Source: Thermorudis peleae (GTDB lineage: Bacteria; Chloroflexota; Chloroflexia; Thermomicrobiales; Thermomicrobiaceae). Taken from it: 64,000 nucleotides of DNA. The stretch's first letter is position 1; each line of letters opens with the position of its first letter. The notes under the pieces are model-generated. The model was not told the DNA's origin, did not search any database, and saw nothing but the letters and a program-made list of their open reading frames with translations. The DNA lies in contig NZ_JQMP01000003.1 in NCBI RefSeq assembly GCF_000744775.1, forward strand, positions 1 through 64,000. Direction: 5' to 3'. The translations under genes were made by a program, and so were the position numbers. Positions 35,485 through 44,105 of this stretch are shown here, one piece after another.

Positions 35485-37677
35485 TCAGGCCGTCTGTCCA
35501 GCGACTGGCGCCGGCGCCAGGTTCCCATCGTCAGCAGCGACTGCCGGACGCGGCGTTTCGGGGTATTCAATGCGCGGATGGTAGATGCCCTCGAGAATTG
35601 TCAGGAAGACGCGGCGAATCTCGCCAAGCTCTCGCAGCGTCAAGTCGCATTCGTCGAGCTGACCATCTTCAAGCCGCTCGTGGATGACGCGGTCGACAAT
35701 CTCTTCGAGCGCAGTGCTGCGTCGGCCATTGGCGTCGCCCTCGTACAACTTGCCAGACTGCGCAGCTGCCCGCACTGCTGCTTCCACGCCATCGGCAAGC
35801 ATGATAATTGCGGCCTCCTTCGTCTGGGGCTTCGGACCAGGATAGCGAAACGCCGCTTCATCGACCGGCTCACCAGCGGCCAACGCTTTGGAGTAGAAGT
35901 ATTTGATCAGCATCGTGCCATGGTGCTGCTCGATCATTTCGACAATTGGCCGGGGCAACCGAGCCTTCTTGGCAAGGCGTACGCCGTCAGTGACGTGCGC
36001 CTTGATGAGCTGCGCACTCGTGAGTGGATCGAGTGTATCGTGGACATTGGCGCGGTTCGCTTGATTTTCGACGAAGAAACTTGGGCGCAAGACTTTGCCA
36101 ATATCATGATAGAGCACGCCGACACGGGTGAGCAGCGGATCGGCGCCAATGGCCTCGGCAGCGGCCTCGGCCAGGTTCCCGACAACGAGGCTGTGATGAT
36201 AGGTACCGGGCGCTTCACGCACGAGGCGGCTCAGCAGCGGCTGGTTGGGGTGGGCAAGCTCGAGCAGTTGCAGATGGGTGGTGATGCCGAGTAAGCGGCC
36301 AAGCAGGCTGAACGACAGGAAGCAGAGGCTTGCTGAGAGGGCGCCGTTGATGCCACCTTCAACGACGAGCATCAGCGCTTGGGAAGGCGTCAACGACCGG
36401 TCAATGAGTGCAAAGAGGATTGACAAGACGGCAGCCGTGCCACCAACGGCGAGCACGCTCCACAGAAACGTGAGTGCACGTTCAGCTCGCCAGATCACGA
36501 GCGCACCGACGAGGCTCGTCAGCGCCGTGAGCAGCACGACCTCGTACGAGAGGCCAGCAATGGCGCCGAGGTAGAGGCCGGTGAAGGTGCCGGTGATCGC
36601 GGCAACGCGGACGTCGAGGAGGATGGCAAGCAGCATAATGGCGCCAGCGGCGGGGAAGAGCGGGCGCACCGCGGGGTTCATGAAGACAAAGCGGCCAACG
36701 GCGACGACGCTGAGCACCATCGCGCCGATGAGGAGGAACTGCCGGGCTTGACGGGTTGGCTGCAGGAAGCGGTAGAGCGTCACGGTAAAGATGGCCGTGA
36801 TGACCACCAGCAATCCGCTCAGTCCAACAAAGCGCTCCCACGTTAGCCGCGGCGCAAGCAGGCCGAAGTACTCAAGCTTCTCCAGTATTTCTGGGGTGAT
36901 GACATCGCCATCACGAACGATGACCTGGCCAGCCTGCACAGTGACGTAGACCGGCTGGACCTGAGCCGCGGCTGCCTCGCGGGCGGCCTTGGTGCGCTCC
37001 TCATCGACCTGGACGTTTGCGCGGATGAACGGCCGTGCCAGGTCGATGGCGAGGCGTGCTTCATTCGGGCTGAGGCTCGGATTGACGCGCAGGAAGAGCG
37101 ATTCTTTGACCGACGCAACGTCTTCAGGTCGTACGGTGTCGGCCATAACGAGCGAAAGCAGCCGCCGCGCCTCAGTTTCGACACGCCCCCACGACTGATC
37201 GTTCATCGTGACGAGGAGTTGCGCATCTTCAGCGCTGAGGCCGTCGAGGGCCGCTTGTGCTTTCTGGGCGGCGACATTCGGCGGCTGGGCATGGTCAGCC
37301 CGGATCGCGTCGAGTTGCGCCAGCAGCCGGTTGAGCGCGTCGAGCTGTGTTGTGCCAACAGCCGGATCGCGCACCAACACGACATTGCGGGCATCGTCGT
37401 AGGCTTCCTTGCGACGCTGAGCGGTCAGCAGCTTGCTCTCAAACGTGGCAGTGCGTGGGGCCTTGATCGTCTTGTCAGCGATCTGCCCAACGCGCCAGTT
37501 GAGGGTATCGGTCGCCCAGGTCAGCGCCAGCAAGGCCAAGAGCCCCGTGCTGAGCGCAACGCCGAAGGCCGTGGGTACCAGTGCCGGACGGTGCCACAGC
37601 CCGGAACGGCGCAGGCGGCCCCACGCCCGCGCGAGCCGTGAGCTCTGTTTCCCTTTTGCGCGGAGTACCCGCCACAT
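35485..37677 (-). CDS. pgpH: 7TM-HD family membrane phosphohydrolase (PgpH-type c-di-AMP phosphodiesterase)
   Basis: A 730-residue protein: N-terminal membrane helix (~residues 38-58), a large extracytoplasmic 7TMR-HDED domain, seven membrane helices (~290-480), then a cytoplasmic HD domain. The HD residues are seen in GTYHHSLVVGNLAEAAAE, VGVLYHDIGKVLRP, IEQHHGTMLIKYFY and IIMLADGVEAAVR. Characterised relatives hydrolyse c-di-AMP to pApA. The ybeY neighbour is standard. A Pro/Ala-rich tail ends the protein. Confidence 0.92.
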   Translation of the reverse strand: MWRVLRAKGKQSSRLARAWGRLRRSGLWHRPALVPTAFGVALSTGLLALLALTWATDTLNWRVGQIADKTIKAPRTATFESKLLTAQRRKEAYDDARNVVLVRDPAVGTTQLDALNRLLAQLDAIRADHAQPPNVAAQKAQAALDGLSAEDAQLLVTMNDQSWGRVETEARRLLSLVMADTVRPEDVASVKESLFLRVNPSLSPNEARLAIDLARPFIRANVQVDEERTKAAREAAAAQVQPVYVTVQAGQVIVRDGDVITPEILEKLEYFGLLAPRLTWERFVGLSGLLVVITAIFTVTLYRFLQPTRQARQFLLIGAMVLSVVAVGRFVFMNPAVRPLFPAAGAIMLLAILLDVRVAAITGTFTGLYLGAIAGLSYEVVLLTALTSLVGALVIWRAERALTFLWSVLAVGGTAAVLSILFALIDRSLTPSQALMLVVEGGINGALSASLCFLSFSLLGRLLGITTHLQLLELAHPNQPLLSRLVREAPGTYHHSLVVGNLAEAAAEAIGADPLLTRVGVLYHDIGKVLRPSFFVENQANRANVHDTLDPLTSAQLIKAHVTDGVRLAKKARLPRPIVEMIEQHHGTMLIKYFYSKALAAGEPVDEAAFRYPGPKPQTKEAAIIMLADGVEAAVRAAAQSGKLYEGDANGRRSTALEEIVDRVIHERLEDGQLDECDLTLRELGEIRRVFLTILEGIYHPRIEYPETPRPAVAADDGNLAPAPVAGQTA

Positions 37678-37712: not shown

Positions 37713-38186
37713 TCATGACGAAGGATGCGCCGTCGCTCGCTCGTTCAGCGCTTGGCGAGCTGCATCAGCAATGGCCTGTCCCTCAGCCCGTGGTCCGACG
37801 CGTGCGCGGAGCACTGGCATAACCTTGCTCATATCCTTCGGCCCAGCTGCGCCGACCTCTTCAACGACCTGCCGGGCAAGCGCAAGGAGTTCATCGGGCG
37901 AAAGCTGAGGCGGCAAGTACTGTTCCAGCACAGCAATCTGTGCTGACTCGCGGTCAACCAGGTCAGTGCGGCCGCCCTGCGCAAACTGCTCAATCGCCTC
38001 ACGCCGCATCTTGATCTGCCGGCGAATGACTTCAATGATTTCATCATCGGTCAAGGGACGGCCCTTCTCAATCTCGACATTTTTGATCTCGGCCCGCAGA
38101 AAGCGGATGACTTCGCGGCGTGTGACATCGCCACTTCGTACGGCTTCCTGCAGGTCAGCTAGCAGGCGCTCTGCCAAACCCGGCAC
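37713..38186 (-). CDS. yqeY: GatB/YqeY domain protein
   Basis: A 157-residue YqeY-type protein, homologous to the tail domain of the GatB amidotransferase subunit, which may bind tRNA. The family core is seen in DVTRREVIRFLRAEIKNVEI, EQYLPPQLSPDELLAL and KDMSKVMPVLRARVGPRAEG. GTG 38186 is chosen for AAGGAG six bases upstream. rpsU, its frequent neighbour, is not present. It has its own sigma-70 promoter at 38281-38309. Confidence 0.9.
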   Translation of the reverse strand: MPGLAERLLADLQEAVRSGDVTRREVIRFLRAEIKNVEIEKGRPLTDDEIIEVIRRQIKMRREAIEQFAQGGRTDLVDRESAQIAVLEQYLPPQLSPDELLALARQVVEEVGAAGPKDMSKVMPVLRARVGPRAEGQAIADAARQALNERATAHPSS

Positions 38187-38280
38187 GTTGTTCTCCTTTT
38201 TCCTTGCCGGAAGGGAGTGAAACCTTCCGCTGCAGCACACGTGGCGTAACGCAGTTCGCGTGCCTGCACGCGGCGAGTAG

Positions 38281-38309
38281 AGTATAAGCGCCCGGCAGCA
38301 TTTCGTCAA
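38281..38309 (-). promoter_or_regulatory. Sigma-70 promoter for yqeY
   Basis: On the minus strand TTGACG (38304-38309) and TATACT (38281-38286) are separated by 17 nt. It lies back-to-back with the lysine operon promoter, with only 21 nt between the two -35 boxes. Confidence 0.8.
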
Positions 38310-38330
38310 TTCCCAACCAGATCCGGGCTC

Positions 38331-38359
38331 TTGACAGGAACGCTGCACGCGGCTATGCT
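38331..38359 (+). promoter_or_regulatory. Sigma-70 promoter of the lysine operon
   Basis: TTGACA (38331-38336) and TATGCT (38354-38359) have a 17-nt spacer, close to consensus. The expected start near 38366 puts the leader peptide ORF about 34 nt downstream and the structural gene ~370 nt downstream. Confidence 0.8.
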
Positions 38360-38399
38360 AATCATGCCCTGATCGATGTGGGGCATGGAGGAGTTGTTC

Positions 38400-38471
38400 G
38401 TGATCGTCACGCGGTGCCTGGCGAAAAAAGCGGTGCAGACACAGCGGAAGCCGGACGGTCGTCCAGGCTAG
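38400..38471 (+). CDS. Putative lysine-operon leader peptide
   Basis: A GTG start six bases after a perfect GGAGGAG opens a 23-codon frame reading MIVTRCLAKKAVQTQRK plus six more residues, ending TAG 38469-38471. It contains tandem Lys codons AAA AAA (38424-38429) and a third Lys codon downstream. It sits between a strong promoter and an intrinsic terminator, upstream of homocitrate synthase. This matches a translation-coupled attenuator sensing charged tRNA-Lys. Leader-peptide attenuation has been reported for the lysine genes of Thermus thermophilus; here it is inferred. Confidence 0.7.
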   Translation: MIVTRCLAKKAVQTQRKPDGRPG

Positions 38472-38496
38472 CGTGACGCACTTGCATGCGCGAACG

Positions 38497-38536
38497 GCCC
38501 CAGGCGACTGATCCGGCGCCTGGGGCTCTTGCTTTT
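38497..38536 (+). terminator. Attenuator terminator in the lysine operon leader
   Basis: A perfect 10-bp GC stem (38497-38506 with 38517-38526) with a 10-nt loop is followed by tcttgctttt. It lies 25 nt after the leader peptide stop and ~200 nt before the homocitrate synthase gene. A hexamer gcctgg at 38416-38421, just before the Lys codons, can pair with ccaggc at 38463-38468 or with the terminator's 5' arm. The copy of ccaggc ends at the leader stop codon and can also pair with the terminator's 3' arm, so competing structures are available. Confidence 0.8.
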
Positions 38537-38539
38537 CTC

Positions 38540-38732
38540 AGCGTGTTGATCTGGATAGGATACGCAGGCGGTATGGAACGAGACGCGACAAGGGATGCAT
38601 GTCCACCGATTGGCCTGAGTCCCGTGCTACCCTGGCTCACCCCACACCGCGCGCTTGCCAAACGCGGGAAACGCCGTTGGTGTGCGTTGCCGCGTGTGCT
38701 GGTGTGGTCTGTGAGGAGAAAGGAGCACGGCC
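38540..38732 (+). other. Remaining lysine-operon leader
   Basis: The ~190 nt between the attenuator terminator and the structural gene hold no recognisable gene or hairpin terminator. An AGGAG site at 38721-38725 serves the TTG start at 38733. Confidence 0.5.
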
Positions 38733-39899
38733 TTGTCGCTACCACCGTTTGCCCTCATCGATACGACGCTGCGTGAAGGGGAACAGTTCGCCTACGCGCA
38801 CTTTACGCGCGAGCAGAAGATTCGGATTGCCACTGCGCTTGATGCCTTTGGGATCGACTACCTTGAAGTCACCAACCCCGCTGCCTCGCCGGGCAGTTTC
38901 GCGGACTGCCGAGCCCTGACGCAACTGGGTTTGCGCTGCAAGATTCTTGCCCACATCCGCTGCAATCTCGACGACGCTGCGCGTGCACTCGAAGCGGGGG
39001 TGGATGGACTGAACATCGTGATTGGCGCGTCACCCTACTTGCAGGCCTATAGCCACGGCCTCGATGTCGACGCGATTATCGAGCGGGCAACCCATGTTTT
39101 AACTGAAATCCGGCGCCAAGCGCCAACCATCGCGTTGCGCTTCTCGCTCGAGGACGCGTTCCGCAGCCGTCTCGCTGACCTCCTGCGTATCTACCTCGCC
39201 GTTGACCATCTCGGGATCGTCGACCGGCTCGGGATTGCCGACACGGTCGGCGTGGCGACCCCGACGGACGTAGCCTGGCTTGTCGGCTTGCTTCGCCGGA
39301 TCACGACGCGTGACATCGAATTCCACGGGCACAACGATACTGGATGCGCCATTGCCAACGCCGCGGCCGCGCTCGAGGCGGGCGCAACCCACATCGACGT
39401 TAGTGTGCTGGGCATCGGCGAGCGGAACGGGATTACCCCGCTCGGCGGGCTCCTGGCACGGCTCTATACGCGCGATCCAGCAGCACTGCGCCAGCGCTAT
39501 GCACTGCATCAGCTCGGCGAACTCGAGCAACTGGTGGCCGAAAGCGTTGGCGTGACCATCCCGTTCAACAATCCGATCACCGGCGCGACCGCGTTCACCC
39601 ACAAGGCCGGCATCCACACCAAGGCAGTCTTGAACCAGCCGGTCAGCTACGAGGCGATCGACCCTGCCGACTTTGGCCGGACGCGTACCATCGCGATTGC
39701 CCATCGTTTAACCGGCTGGCATGCTGTGCAAGCGCGGGCAGCCGAGCTTGGTCTGCAGCTTGATGATGCACGGATCCGCGCAGTCGCGGCGCATGTCAAG
39801 GCGCTGGCGGACACCCGTCCGGTGACCCTCGACGATGTCGACGCGCTGCTACGGGCCGAGGCCGAGCGCTCCACGGCGCTGAGTTCGTCATCCCGGTGA
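38733..39899 (+). CDS. lysS: Homocitrate synthase (alpha-aminoadipate lysine pathway)
   Basis: Condenses acetyl-CoA with 2-oxoglutarate to homocitrate, the first step of lysine synthesis through alpha-aminoadipate. It is 388 residues and belongs to the HMGL/DRE-TIM family. Visible motifs are [44 protein letters not shown] with the metal-binding His, and [21 protein letters not shown]. These segments match the Thermus homocitrate synthase type better than isopropylmalate synthase, and the short C-terminus lacks the LeuA regulatory domain. The TTG start has a GAAAGGAG site. Expression is probably attenuated by lysine. Confidence 0.88.
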
Positions 39900-39913
39900 A
39901 GGGAGGGAGCACG

Positions 39914-41236
39914 ATGCCGGGGAAGACCTTTGCCGAAAAGGCACTAGCGCGCGCCAGCGGGCAACCAACGGTCACAGCGGGAGCGATCGTCGACGTACGA
40001 CCGGACCGCATCCTCAGCCACGACAATACTGCAGCGATCGCCCGAGCCTTTGCCCAACTCGGCTTTACGCGCGTTGTTGATCCTGAACGGCTGGCGATCA
40101 CGCTCGACCATGCTGTACCGCCGCCGACTGTGCGTCACGCACAAAATCATGCTGAAATTCGTCGCTTTGTGACCGAGCAAGGGATCCGCCACTTCTACGA
40201 GGCAGGACGTGGCATTTGCCACCAGGTGCTGAGCGAAGAGGCGCTGGTACTGCCGGGCCAGCTGATTCTGGGAGCCGACAGCCACACGACGCACTTCGGG
40301 TGGCTTGGCGCGTTCGGCGCTGGCGTTGGGCGGAGCGAGGTGCTTGCGCTGTGGGCCACCGGCGAGCTTTGGCTCCGTGTCCCCGAGAGCATTCGGGTCG
40401 AACTGCGCGGCACACTGCCGCCTGGCGTGACAACGAAAGACCTGTGCCTGCGCATCATCGGTGACTGTGGCGCCGATGGGGGCATCTACCGCTCAGTCGA
40501 GTTCGTCGGCGAGGGGCTGCGACACCTCTCGATCGATAGCCGGATGACGATTGCGAACATGATGGCCGAGTTTGGCGTCAAGAACGCCTATCTTGAGCCG
40601 GACGATCAGGTCATGGACTGGCTTGCCCCACGGCTTGCTCGCCGGACGGGCCGCGATCTCGCGGACTGCCGCGCCGAGATCGCCGCTGGCGCGCTCTACC
40701 CTGATCCTGACGCGGTCTACGAGCGAGTCCTTTCCTACGACCTCAGCCAACTTGAGCCGGTCGTGGCGTGCCCCCACACCGTCGACAACGTGCGGCCGAT
40801 CAGCGAGGTTGCCGGCACGCGCATCGACTACGCCTTCATCGGCACGTGCACCAACGGCCGGCTCGAAGACCTGGAAGCAGCAGCCCAGGTGCTGGCTGGG
40901 CGGCGTATTGCCCCACACGTCCACCTCGTCGTGATCCCCGCGTCCGCTGAAGTCCTGCGCGAGGCGATGGCGCGCGGCATCGCCCAGCAACTGGTCGAGG
41001 CTGGCGCGATGCTTGGGGTACCCGGCTGCGGGCCGTGCATGGGAAACCATTTCGGCATTCCAGCGCCGGGGGAAGTGGTGATCTCCTCGGGGAATCGCAA
41101 CTTCCGCGGGCGGATGGGCTCACCTGAAGCGGCGATCTATTTGGCTAGCCCGGTTGCCGTCGCCGCGAGCGCGCTGCGGGGGCAGATTACTGATCCACGC
41201 GAGGTGCTGGCCACAACAGCAACAGGAGGACGATGA
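39914..41236 (+). CDS. lysT: Homoaconitase large subunit (LysT/LeuC-like)
   Basis: Aconitase-superfamily large subunit, 440 residues, for isomerising homocitrate via homoaconitate. The 4Fe-4S cysteines lie in [11 protein letters not shown] and [14 protein letters not shown]. Other family segments are [18 protein letters not shown] and [14 protein letters not shown] 39914 follows GGGAGGGAG. Placement straight after homocitrate synthase argues for LysT over LeuC, though dual use in leucine synthesis cannot be excluded. Confidence 0.87.
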
Positions 41237-41757
41237 TGCGGTGGACTGGACGAGCCTGGGTCTATGGCGACAACGTAAGCACCGATGTCCTTTTCCCCGG
41301 CAAGTACACGTATACGATCGTTGATCCAGCTGAGATGGCTCGCCATGCCCTCGAAGACCTTGACCCGACGTTCGTCGAGGGGGTACAGCCAGGCGACATC
41401 GTGGTTGGTGGCCGCAACTTCGGCTGTGGCAGCTCGAGGGAGCAGGCAGTGCTGGCACTGCGGGCAGCCGGGGTGCGGGCCATCATCGCGGCATCGTTCG
41501 CCCGCATCTACTTTCGCAACGCGGTCAACCACGGTGTGCTGCCGATCCAGTGTCCGGAGGCTGCCGCAGTGATCCAGCACGGCGAGCGGGTCACGATCGA
41601 TACGGAGGCTCGCACCATCACGTGCGCCGCTGGCACGTTCACCTTTCCGCCGTTGTCGCCGTCAGTGCAAGCGATTCTTGATGCCGGCGGACTCATCCCG
41701 ATGCTCTGCCAGCGGTTTGGCCGCCCGGTACCACCGAATTTCCAGCTGCCTGGCTAG
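41236..41757 (+). CDS. lysU: Homoaconitase small subunit (LysU/LeuD-like)
   Basis: Swivel-domain partner of LysT, 173 residues. Signature regions are [53 protein letters not shown] and FTFPPLSP. The loop after GKY (YTYTIVD), which helps set substrate choice in this family, differs from the common LeuD form. There are two adjacent ATG codons; 41236 is six bases after AGGAGG and overlaps the lysT stop. The stop overlaps that of the convergent acyltransferase. The remaining lysine genes are outside the window. Confidence 0.85.
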
Positions 41758-44031: not shown

Positions 44032-44105
44032 GGCGCATTCGTCTAGCGGCCAAGGACACCGCCCTCTCAAGGCGGAGATCACGGGTTCGAATCCCGTATG
44101 CGCCA
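44032..44105 (+). tRNA. tRNA-Glu (anticodon CTC)
   Basis: The 74-nt cloverleaf has acceptor pairs GGCGCAT/ATGCGCC, a D-arm with GTCTAGCGGCC, anticodon stem CCGCC/GGCGG with loop CTCTCAA (anticodon CTC, reading GAG) and a T-arm with GGTTCGAATCC. The discriminator base is A. CCA is not encoded and must be added. Confidence 0.96.

Follow-up and report, generated by a model that had tools for sequence, protein, structure and literature searches.

The window examined here, the 64,000 nucleotides at positions 1 to 64,000 of contig NZ_JQMP01000003.1 of Thermorudis peleae (assembly GCF_000744775.1), carries a homocitrate synthase gene followed by genes for the large and small subunits of a homoaconitase-family enzyme, and the region upstream of these genes contains the elements listed in Table 1. 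As the sequence-only reading had claimed, a promoter, a leader open reading frame (ORF) with a Shine-Dalgarno site and tandem AAA codons, and an intrinsic terminator stand in this order before the lysine genes. The features expected of a leader-peptide attenuator are thus present: a promoter, ribosome site and short ORF precede the structural gene, codons for the end product stand in tandem within the ORF and are joined by an AAG codon, the pathway being that of lysine, and a terminator lies between leader and gene. An antiterminator that excludes the terminator, is favoured by a stalled ribosome and is masked by a ribosome at the stop codon was also found in silico, although its significance against shuffled sequences is moderate for the window. 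The scan for promoter-like sites returned four in 1601 bases, against 0.3 expected, and the leader ORF, read from its GTG to its TAG, translates as VIVTRCLAKKAVQTQRKPDGRPG.

Table 1. Features of the leader and of the operon that follows it (positions within the window)
Feature	Position	Strand	Basis or remark
Sigma-70-type promoter, TTGACA-17-TATGCT	38331..38359	+	Promoter scan; 10/12 matches
Leader Shine-Dalgarno site, GGAGGAG	38387..38393	+	Read from sequence
Leader peptide ORF, GTG start 38400, stop TAG 38469-38471	38400..38471	+	Translation MIVTRCLAKKAVQTQRKPDGRPG, then stop
Tandem AAA AAA Lys codons, proposed sensor	38424..38429	+	Sequence; ribosome-masked folds
Third Lys codon, AAG	38448..38450	+	Placed where relatives have their conserved Lys codons
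1:2 hairpin, 38405-38412 with 38473-38480 and GCCUGG with CCAGGC	38405..38480	+	Ribosome-free fold
Antiterminator 5' arm, GCCGGACGGUCGUC	38450..38463	+	Minimum free energy (MFE) fold, stalled transcripts ending 38517-38523
Antiterminator 3' arm, GGCGACUGAUCCGGC (terminator 5' arm and loop)	38503..38517	+	Stalled-transcript folds
Intrinsic terminator hairpin	38496..38527	+	Folding; U-rich tail 38528-38536
Homocitrate synthase, TTG start	38733..39899	+	TIGR02146, 418.5 bits (cut-off 413.55)
Homoaconitase-family large subunit	39896..41236	+	Profile match
Homoaconitase-family small subunit	41233..41757	+	Profile match

Assignment of the operon to the lysine pathway is reasonable, because the homocitrate synthase and homoaconitase subunits are accompanied elsewhere in the genome by two LysX-family genes above the cut-off, one of which adjoins a gene resembling lysK and a small lysW-like ORF, both named by their motifs. 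Upstream of the lysW-like ORF (L206, C4:376000-384000 of the same genome, minus strand) lies a strong terminator-like hairpin (AGCGGCGGTGAGC..CACCGCCG) accompanied by an Arg-containing short ORF (MVRARTRTVQ..); the hairpin is also found in genomes of the same family (L210, L211, L213-L216), and hairpin and ORF together are possibly a separate attenuator. Near the leader itself, a stable hairpin of 10 pairs is predicted at what is presumably the transcript's 5' end (38362-38388), where it touches the Shine-Dalgarno site. A second consensus promoter on the minus strand (TTGACG-17-TATACT, 38309-38281) faces a divergent gene, an ORF within 37713-38348. The window also contains, at 35485-37677 on the minus strand, a gene for a seven-transmembrane receptor with an HD hydrolase domain (PF07697, PF07698, PF01966) and, at 44032-44105, a tRNA gene (Rfam RF00005).

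Folding of the leader region, which the sequence-only reading had proposed, gave for 38365-38545 a structure more stable than those of shuffled sequences (z -2.49; 3 of 200 shuffles as stable). A simple scan for terminators recovered the terminator of the window only in part and gave no excess over shuffles. When a ribosome is placed at either AAA codon, with its leading edge set 12-13 bases beyond the codon as an assumed footprint, transcripts ending at 38519 or 38523 fold with 38450-38463 paired to 38503-38517 (the 2:3 helix), a pairing that is absent when the ribosome is placed at the leader stop. This antiterminator is the MFE structure for stalled transcripts of the window ending at 38517-38523. 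These folds, together with the sequence, support the earlier proposals that the leader is a lysine attenuator with its sensor at the tandem AAA codons and that a ribosome at the stop codon lets the terminator form. A stall at the AAG codon would mask the 5' arm of the antiterminator, so that the tandem AAA codons are the likely sensor.

Constrained energies, calculated with 38440 as the first free base, favour the antiterminator over the local 1:2 hairpin when the transcript ends at 38519 (-35.6 versus -26.6 kcal/mol) and over the terminator when it ends at 38523 (-38.4 versus -34.2 kcal/mol), whereas the terminator is favoured at 38525 (-40.7 versus -38.4 kcal/mol) and at 38535 (-47.5 versus -41.1 kcal/mol). 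Because the terminator is the stabler fold from about 38525 onward, even with the stalled ribosome included, antitermination must be kinetic, with the antiterminator forming first and then holding. The antiterminator of the window stands out moderately from shuffled sequences (14 of 2000), and in a second control, with 1000 shuffles, the counts were 72 by pair number and 31 by energy.

A close orthologue of the homocitrate synthase is absent from 60 near relatives (61 genomes including that of T. peleae), among which the best match in another genome has an E value of 3e-46 and 35% identity, and the wider Chloroflexota were therefore taken for comparison. The comparison set joined 80 loci from genome records to 86 upstream regions from Chloroflexota genomes; these 166 regions include the window, exclude one region of less than 150 bases, contain some genomes twice (from two collections), and draw on 86 of the 96 further genomes in which the search had a hit. 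Under a strict rule, which demanded a short ORF with at least four of one residue within 10 and a terminator-like hairpin within 110 bases, Lys was the commonest class of the 20 amino acids with 33 regions, followed by Ala (15), Arg (14), Leu (11) and Ser (10), the others reaching at most 3. A Lys-rich leader with a terminator thus recurs before homocitrate synthase in Chloroflexota. The window passes only a looser rule (three Lys within 10), which 40 of the 166 regions satisfy in total. Leader endings are shared, for example ..SKQVKRAKKPAGRSG-stop, ..KKPDERSG-stop and ..KKPAQRPG-stop. Many upstream regions have no leader, in many cases because homocitrate synthase is internal to a longer operon; in the closest protein relatives, those of Thermoflexus (67-69%), the scans found no such leader, and in most of these homocitrate synthase closely follows another ORF. 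Two loci (L071, L084) carry two tandem Lys leaders before homocitrate synthase, each with its own terminator. At L170-L179, several leaders have TATATT near the ATG in place of a Shine-Dalgarno site, as if their mRNAs were leaderless.

In the relatives the leader ends with GGUCUGG, which faces CCAGACC in the terminator, in its loop and the upper part of its 5' arm. In an alignment of 28 sequences including the window (A1), 92.8% of the cells of this 2:3 helix are paired, against 17-46% when the arms are slid, and two-sided changes occur in 3 of its 7 pairs; the terminator is 81.7% paired, against 31-43% when slid. The RNAalifold consensus of an alignment of mixed specificities (A2) is likewise the antiterminator. 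Among 14 group representatives, arm 2 binds the terminator of its own locus with a mean of -21.5 kcal/mol and those of other loci with -15.5 kcal/mol, a difference attained in none of 20,000 permutations. Ranks by locus are mixed: the locus's own pair ranks first in 10 of 26, that of the window among them (1 of 26), and 16th or lower at L106, L148, L152 and L050; on our reading, the low ranks are partly due to a boundary of arm 3 that clips bases before the hairpin. In masked folds, each of 40 elements forms 2:3 pairs (5-23) when the ribosome occupies the selected Lys site and 0-6 when it occupies the stop codon, the latter low count being partly made by the mask itself; at least eight 2:3 pairs also form in 23 of the 40 ribosome-free folds.

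The core is not confined to lysine operons. A search with model R1 at E 0.01 matched 63 of 400 Chloroflexota genomes, and beyond its training sequences it reached Lys leaders before homoaconitase and before lysW/lysX genes and, unexpectedly, Arg-rich leaders at argG and argC and Gln-rich leaders at a LysE-type transporter gene. Pro-rich leaders before proS were reached through a loose pattern search; as a detector, the DNA pattern GTCTGG..CCAGAC was rejected as too loose, since it occurs in 387 of 400 genomes and the reversed pattern is also common. Model R2, trained on 28 cores representing all four kinds, matched 70 of 400 genomes; it gave no match in six genomes titled Cyanobacteria (five) or Acidobacteria (one), and it matched both Chloroflexota control genomes, of which one had its core in the training set (L105) and the other did not (L094). 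Loci were classed by the densest of Lys, Arg, Pro and Gln in the leader, and the downstream gene by tblastn to reference families; 47 of 54 could be classed, the other 7 being dropped for want of a readable leader or a recognized gene. The densest residue was Pro at 21 of 22 proS loci, Arg at 8 of 8 argG/argC loci, Gln at 7 of 8 LysE-type loci and Lys at 4 of 5 lysine loci, a correspondence that characterizes the family but does not test it independently, some of the loci having been in the training of R2. The exceptions were one proS locus with Arg (a tie), one transporter locus with Arg and one lysine locus with Gln, and the remaining 4 of the 47 were Arg loci with no reference gene in reach. 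The modelled core leaves out most of the sensor codons, and two specificities can occur in a single genome (for example, Lys and Arg in that of L105). At L258, L272, L351, L353, L354, L355 and L380, a LysE-type (PF01810) transporter gene follows a Gln-rich leader that has the same core, and a similar transporter gene lies within a Lys-leader operon at L378, L379 and L382.

Whether the leader of the window belongs to this family, defined in this analysis as the Chloroflexota GGUCUGG/CCAGACC attenuators, can be judged from several matches. Its C-terminus, KPDGRPG-stop, agrees with the family ending KP[DA]x[RW][SP]G-stop and, under a profile of the last seven residues built without the window, ranks first among 2242 stops (16.2 bits, the next 10.4). 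A 24-nt profile also places the block of the window first among 127,952 positions, with a small lead (14.3 versus 13.3 bits). As in the family, the arm at the leader end pairs with the 5' arm and loop of the terminator, in bases unlike the family hexamers. R1 finds the element, but the window was in its training; R3, built from 27 Lys leaders with the window excluded, gave no plus-strand match there, all it returned being antisense (13.3 bits), and R2 gave none at the element and none in the T. peleae genome at E 0.01. Because the leader-end profiles match and R2 and R3 fail, the window is called a likely yet diverged relative.

The leader of the window is thus most probably a ribosome-mediated transcription attenuator by which the alpha-aminoadipate lysine genes would be switched on when charged tRNA-Lys is short. 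With lysine short, the ribosome translating the leader would stall at the tandem AAA codons, leaving the RNA from 38440 onward free; the 5' arm of the antiterminator would pair with the 3' arm once the latter has been transcribed, and the 5' arm of the terminator would thereby be consumed, so that RNA polymerase reads on. With lysine present, the ribosome would reach the stop codon and cover the antiterminator arm, and the terminator would form. Without translation, the 1:2 hairpin would likewise permit termination.

The sequence-only reading had offered a different antiterminator, in which ccaggc (38463-38468) pairs either with gcctgg (38416-38421) or with the 3' arm of the terminator. Both segments stand where it had placed them and are complementary as it claimed, and the pairing of ccaggc with gcctgg was recovered in the ribosome-free fold, within the competing 1:2 hairpin. 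The 3' arm of the terminator, however, does not hold as the other partner: that pairing yields -8.4 kcal/mol, whereas the adjacent terminator stem yields -25.5 and the 2:3 helix, taken alone, -15.9; it occurs in none of the reported MFE folds of the stalled transcript, which up to 38523 contain the 2:3 helix, and arm 2 of the relatives pairs with the 5' arm of the terminator instead. This 2:4 pairing was discarded on these energies and on the usage of the relatives, and an antiterminator of that kind is very unlikely.

A ligand-binding riboswitch or T-box that controls the operon, with the short ORF incidental, would be in keeping with the frequent control of lysine genes by such elements in other phyla; but at gathering score Rfam finds nothing in the whole window except a tRNA, and no family is matched at 38320-38760 up to E 10. 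A lysine riboswitch or T-box was rejected for lack of a covariance model match, and since a Lys-dense ORF and a terminator also recur together in the relatives, such control is extremely improbable. The small number of Lys codons (two in tandem and one more), the failure of models built without the window to detect it, and the lack of excess in the terminator scan would all suit an ordinary terminator following a chance ORF, in a 5' untranslated region that does not sense lysine. Against this stand the consensus promoter and Shine-Dalgarno site before the ORF, its family-like end, the first rank of the window in complementarity to its own terminator, and the recurrence of leader and terminator upstream of the same gene, and this reading as a whole is very improbable. 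Attenuation by a leader ribosome that stalls at the tandem AAA codons remains the preferred explanation.

Leader-peptide attenuators are usually described one operon at a time, and the classical ones, those of trp, his and ilv, are found in Proteobacteria and Actinobacteria. The leaders described here resemble these in their 1:2, 2:3 and 3:4 hairpins and in the predicted stalling at codons for the end product and termination when the ribosome is at the stop, but in Chloroflexota operons for different amino acids share the 2:3 core and the C-terminus of the leader. The lysine (hcs) cluster of Thermus thermophilus is reportedly also under transcription attenuation by a leader peptide (Tsubouchi et al., J Biol Chem, 2005), and there too a short leader with Lys codons precedes the homocitrate synthase gene of this pathway; it belongs to another phylum, and the likeness is one of description rather than of compared RNA cores. 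The lysine riboswitch (L-box) also controls lysine genes in response to lysine, but the window has no Rfam match to it. Like T-box riboswitches, the Chloroflexota leaders use a single RNA layout, with a codon specificity that can be exchanged, before biosynthetic and tRNA synthetase genes, although their sensor would be a translating ribosome rather than directly bound tRNA, and they match neither the T-box nor any other family in Rfam. Searches of the literature for leader attenuation with lysine, Thermus, Chloroflexi/Chloroflexus and proline found no description of them, the likeliest survey (Lopatovskaya et al., 2010) lying outside their scope, and the available parts of PMC9413887 and PMC4833913 describe no such elements in Chloroflexi. 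The new part seems to be the shared core with exchanged codons.

That one core is shared by Lys, Arg, Pro and Gln leaders suggests an attenuator that is portable and can change its codons, and whose predicted specificities are Lys (homocitrate synthase, homoaconitase, lysW/lysX), Arg (argG, argC), Pro (proS) and Gln (LysE-type transporter). We lean towards common descent of these elements, by which a fixed core would have been copied before different amino-acid operons with only the sensor codons exchanged, and the window would carry a lysine copy that has diverged, its arms having drifted while its logic was kept; the alternative is convergence on a good core. If the attenuator is portable in this way, pairing of the GGUCUGG leader end with CCAGACC would oblige the leader to end in R/W-S/P-G-stop. 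A family that keeps one antiterminator core with swapped codons would be the equivalent of the T-box based on a ribosome, and a real family in which the spread of attenuators and their changes of specificity could be studied. For many uncharacterized Chloroflexota operons, the sequence would then reveal which amino acid is regulated, and a glutamine-linked signal would be predicted for the LysE-type transporter.
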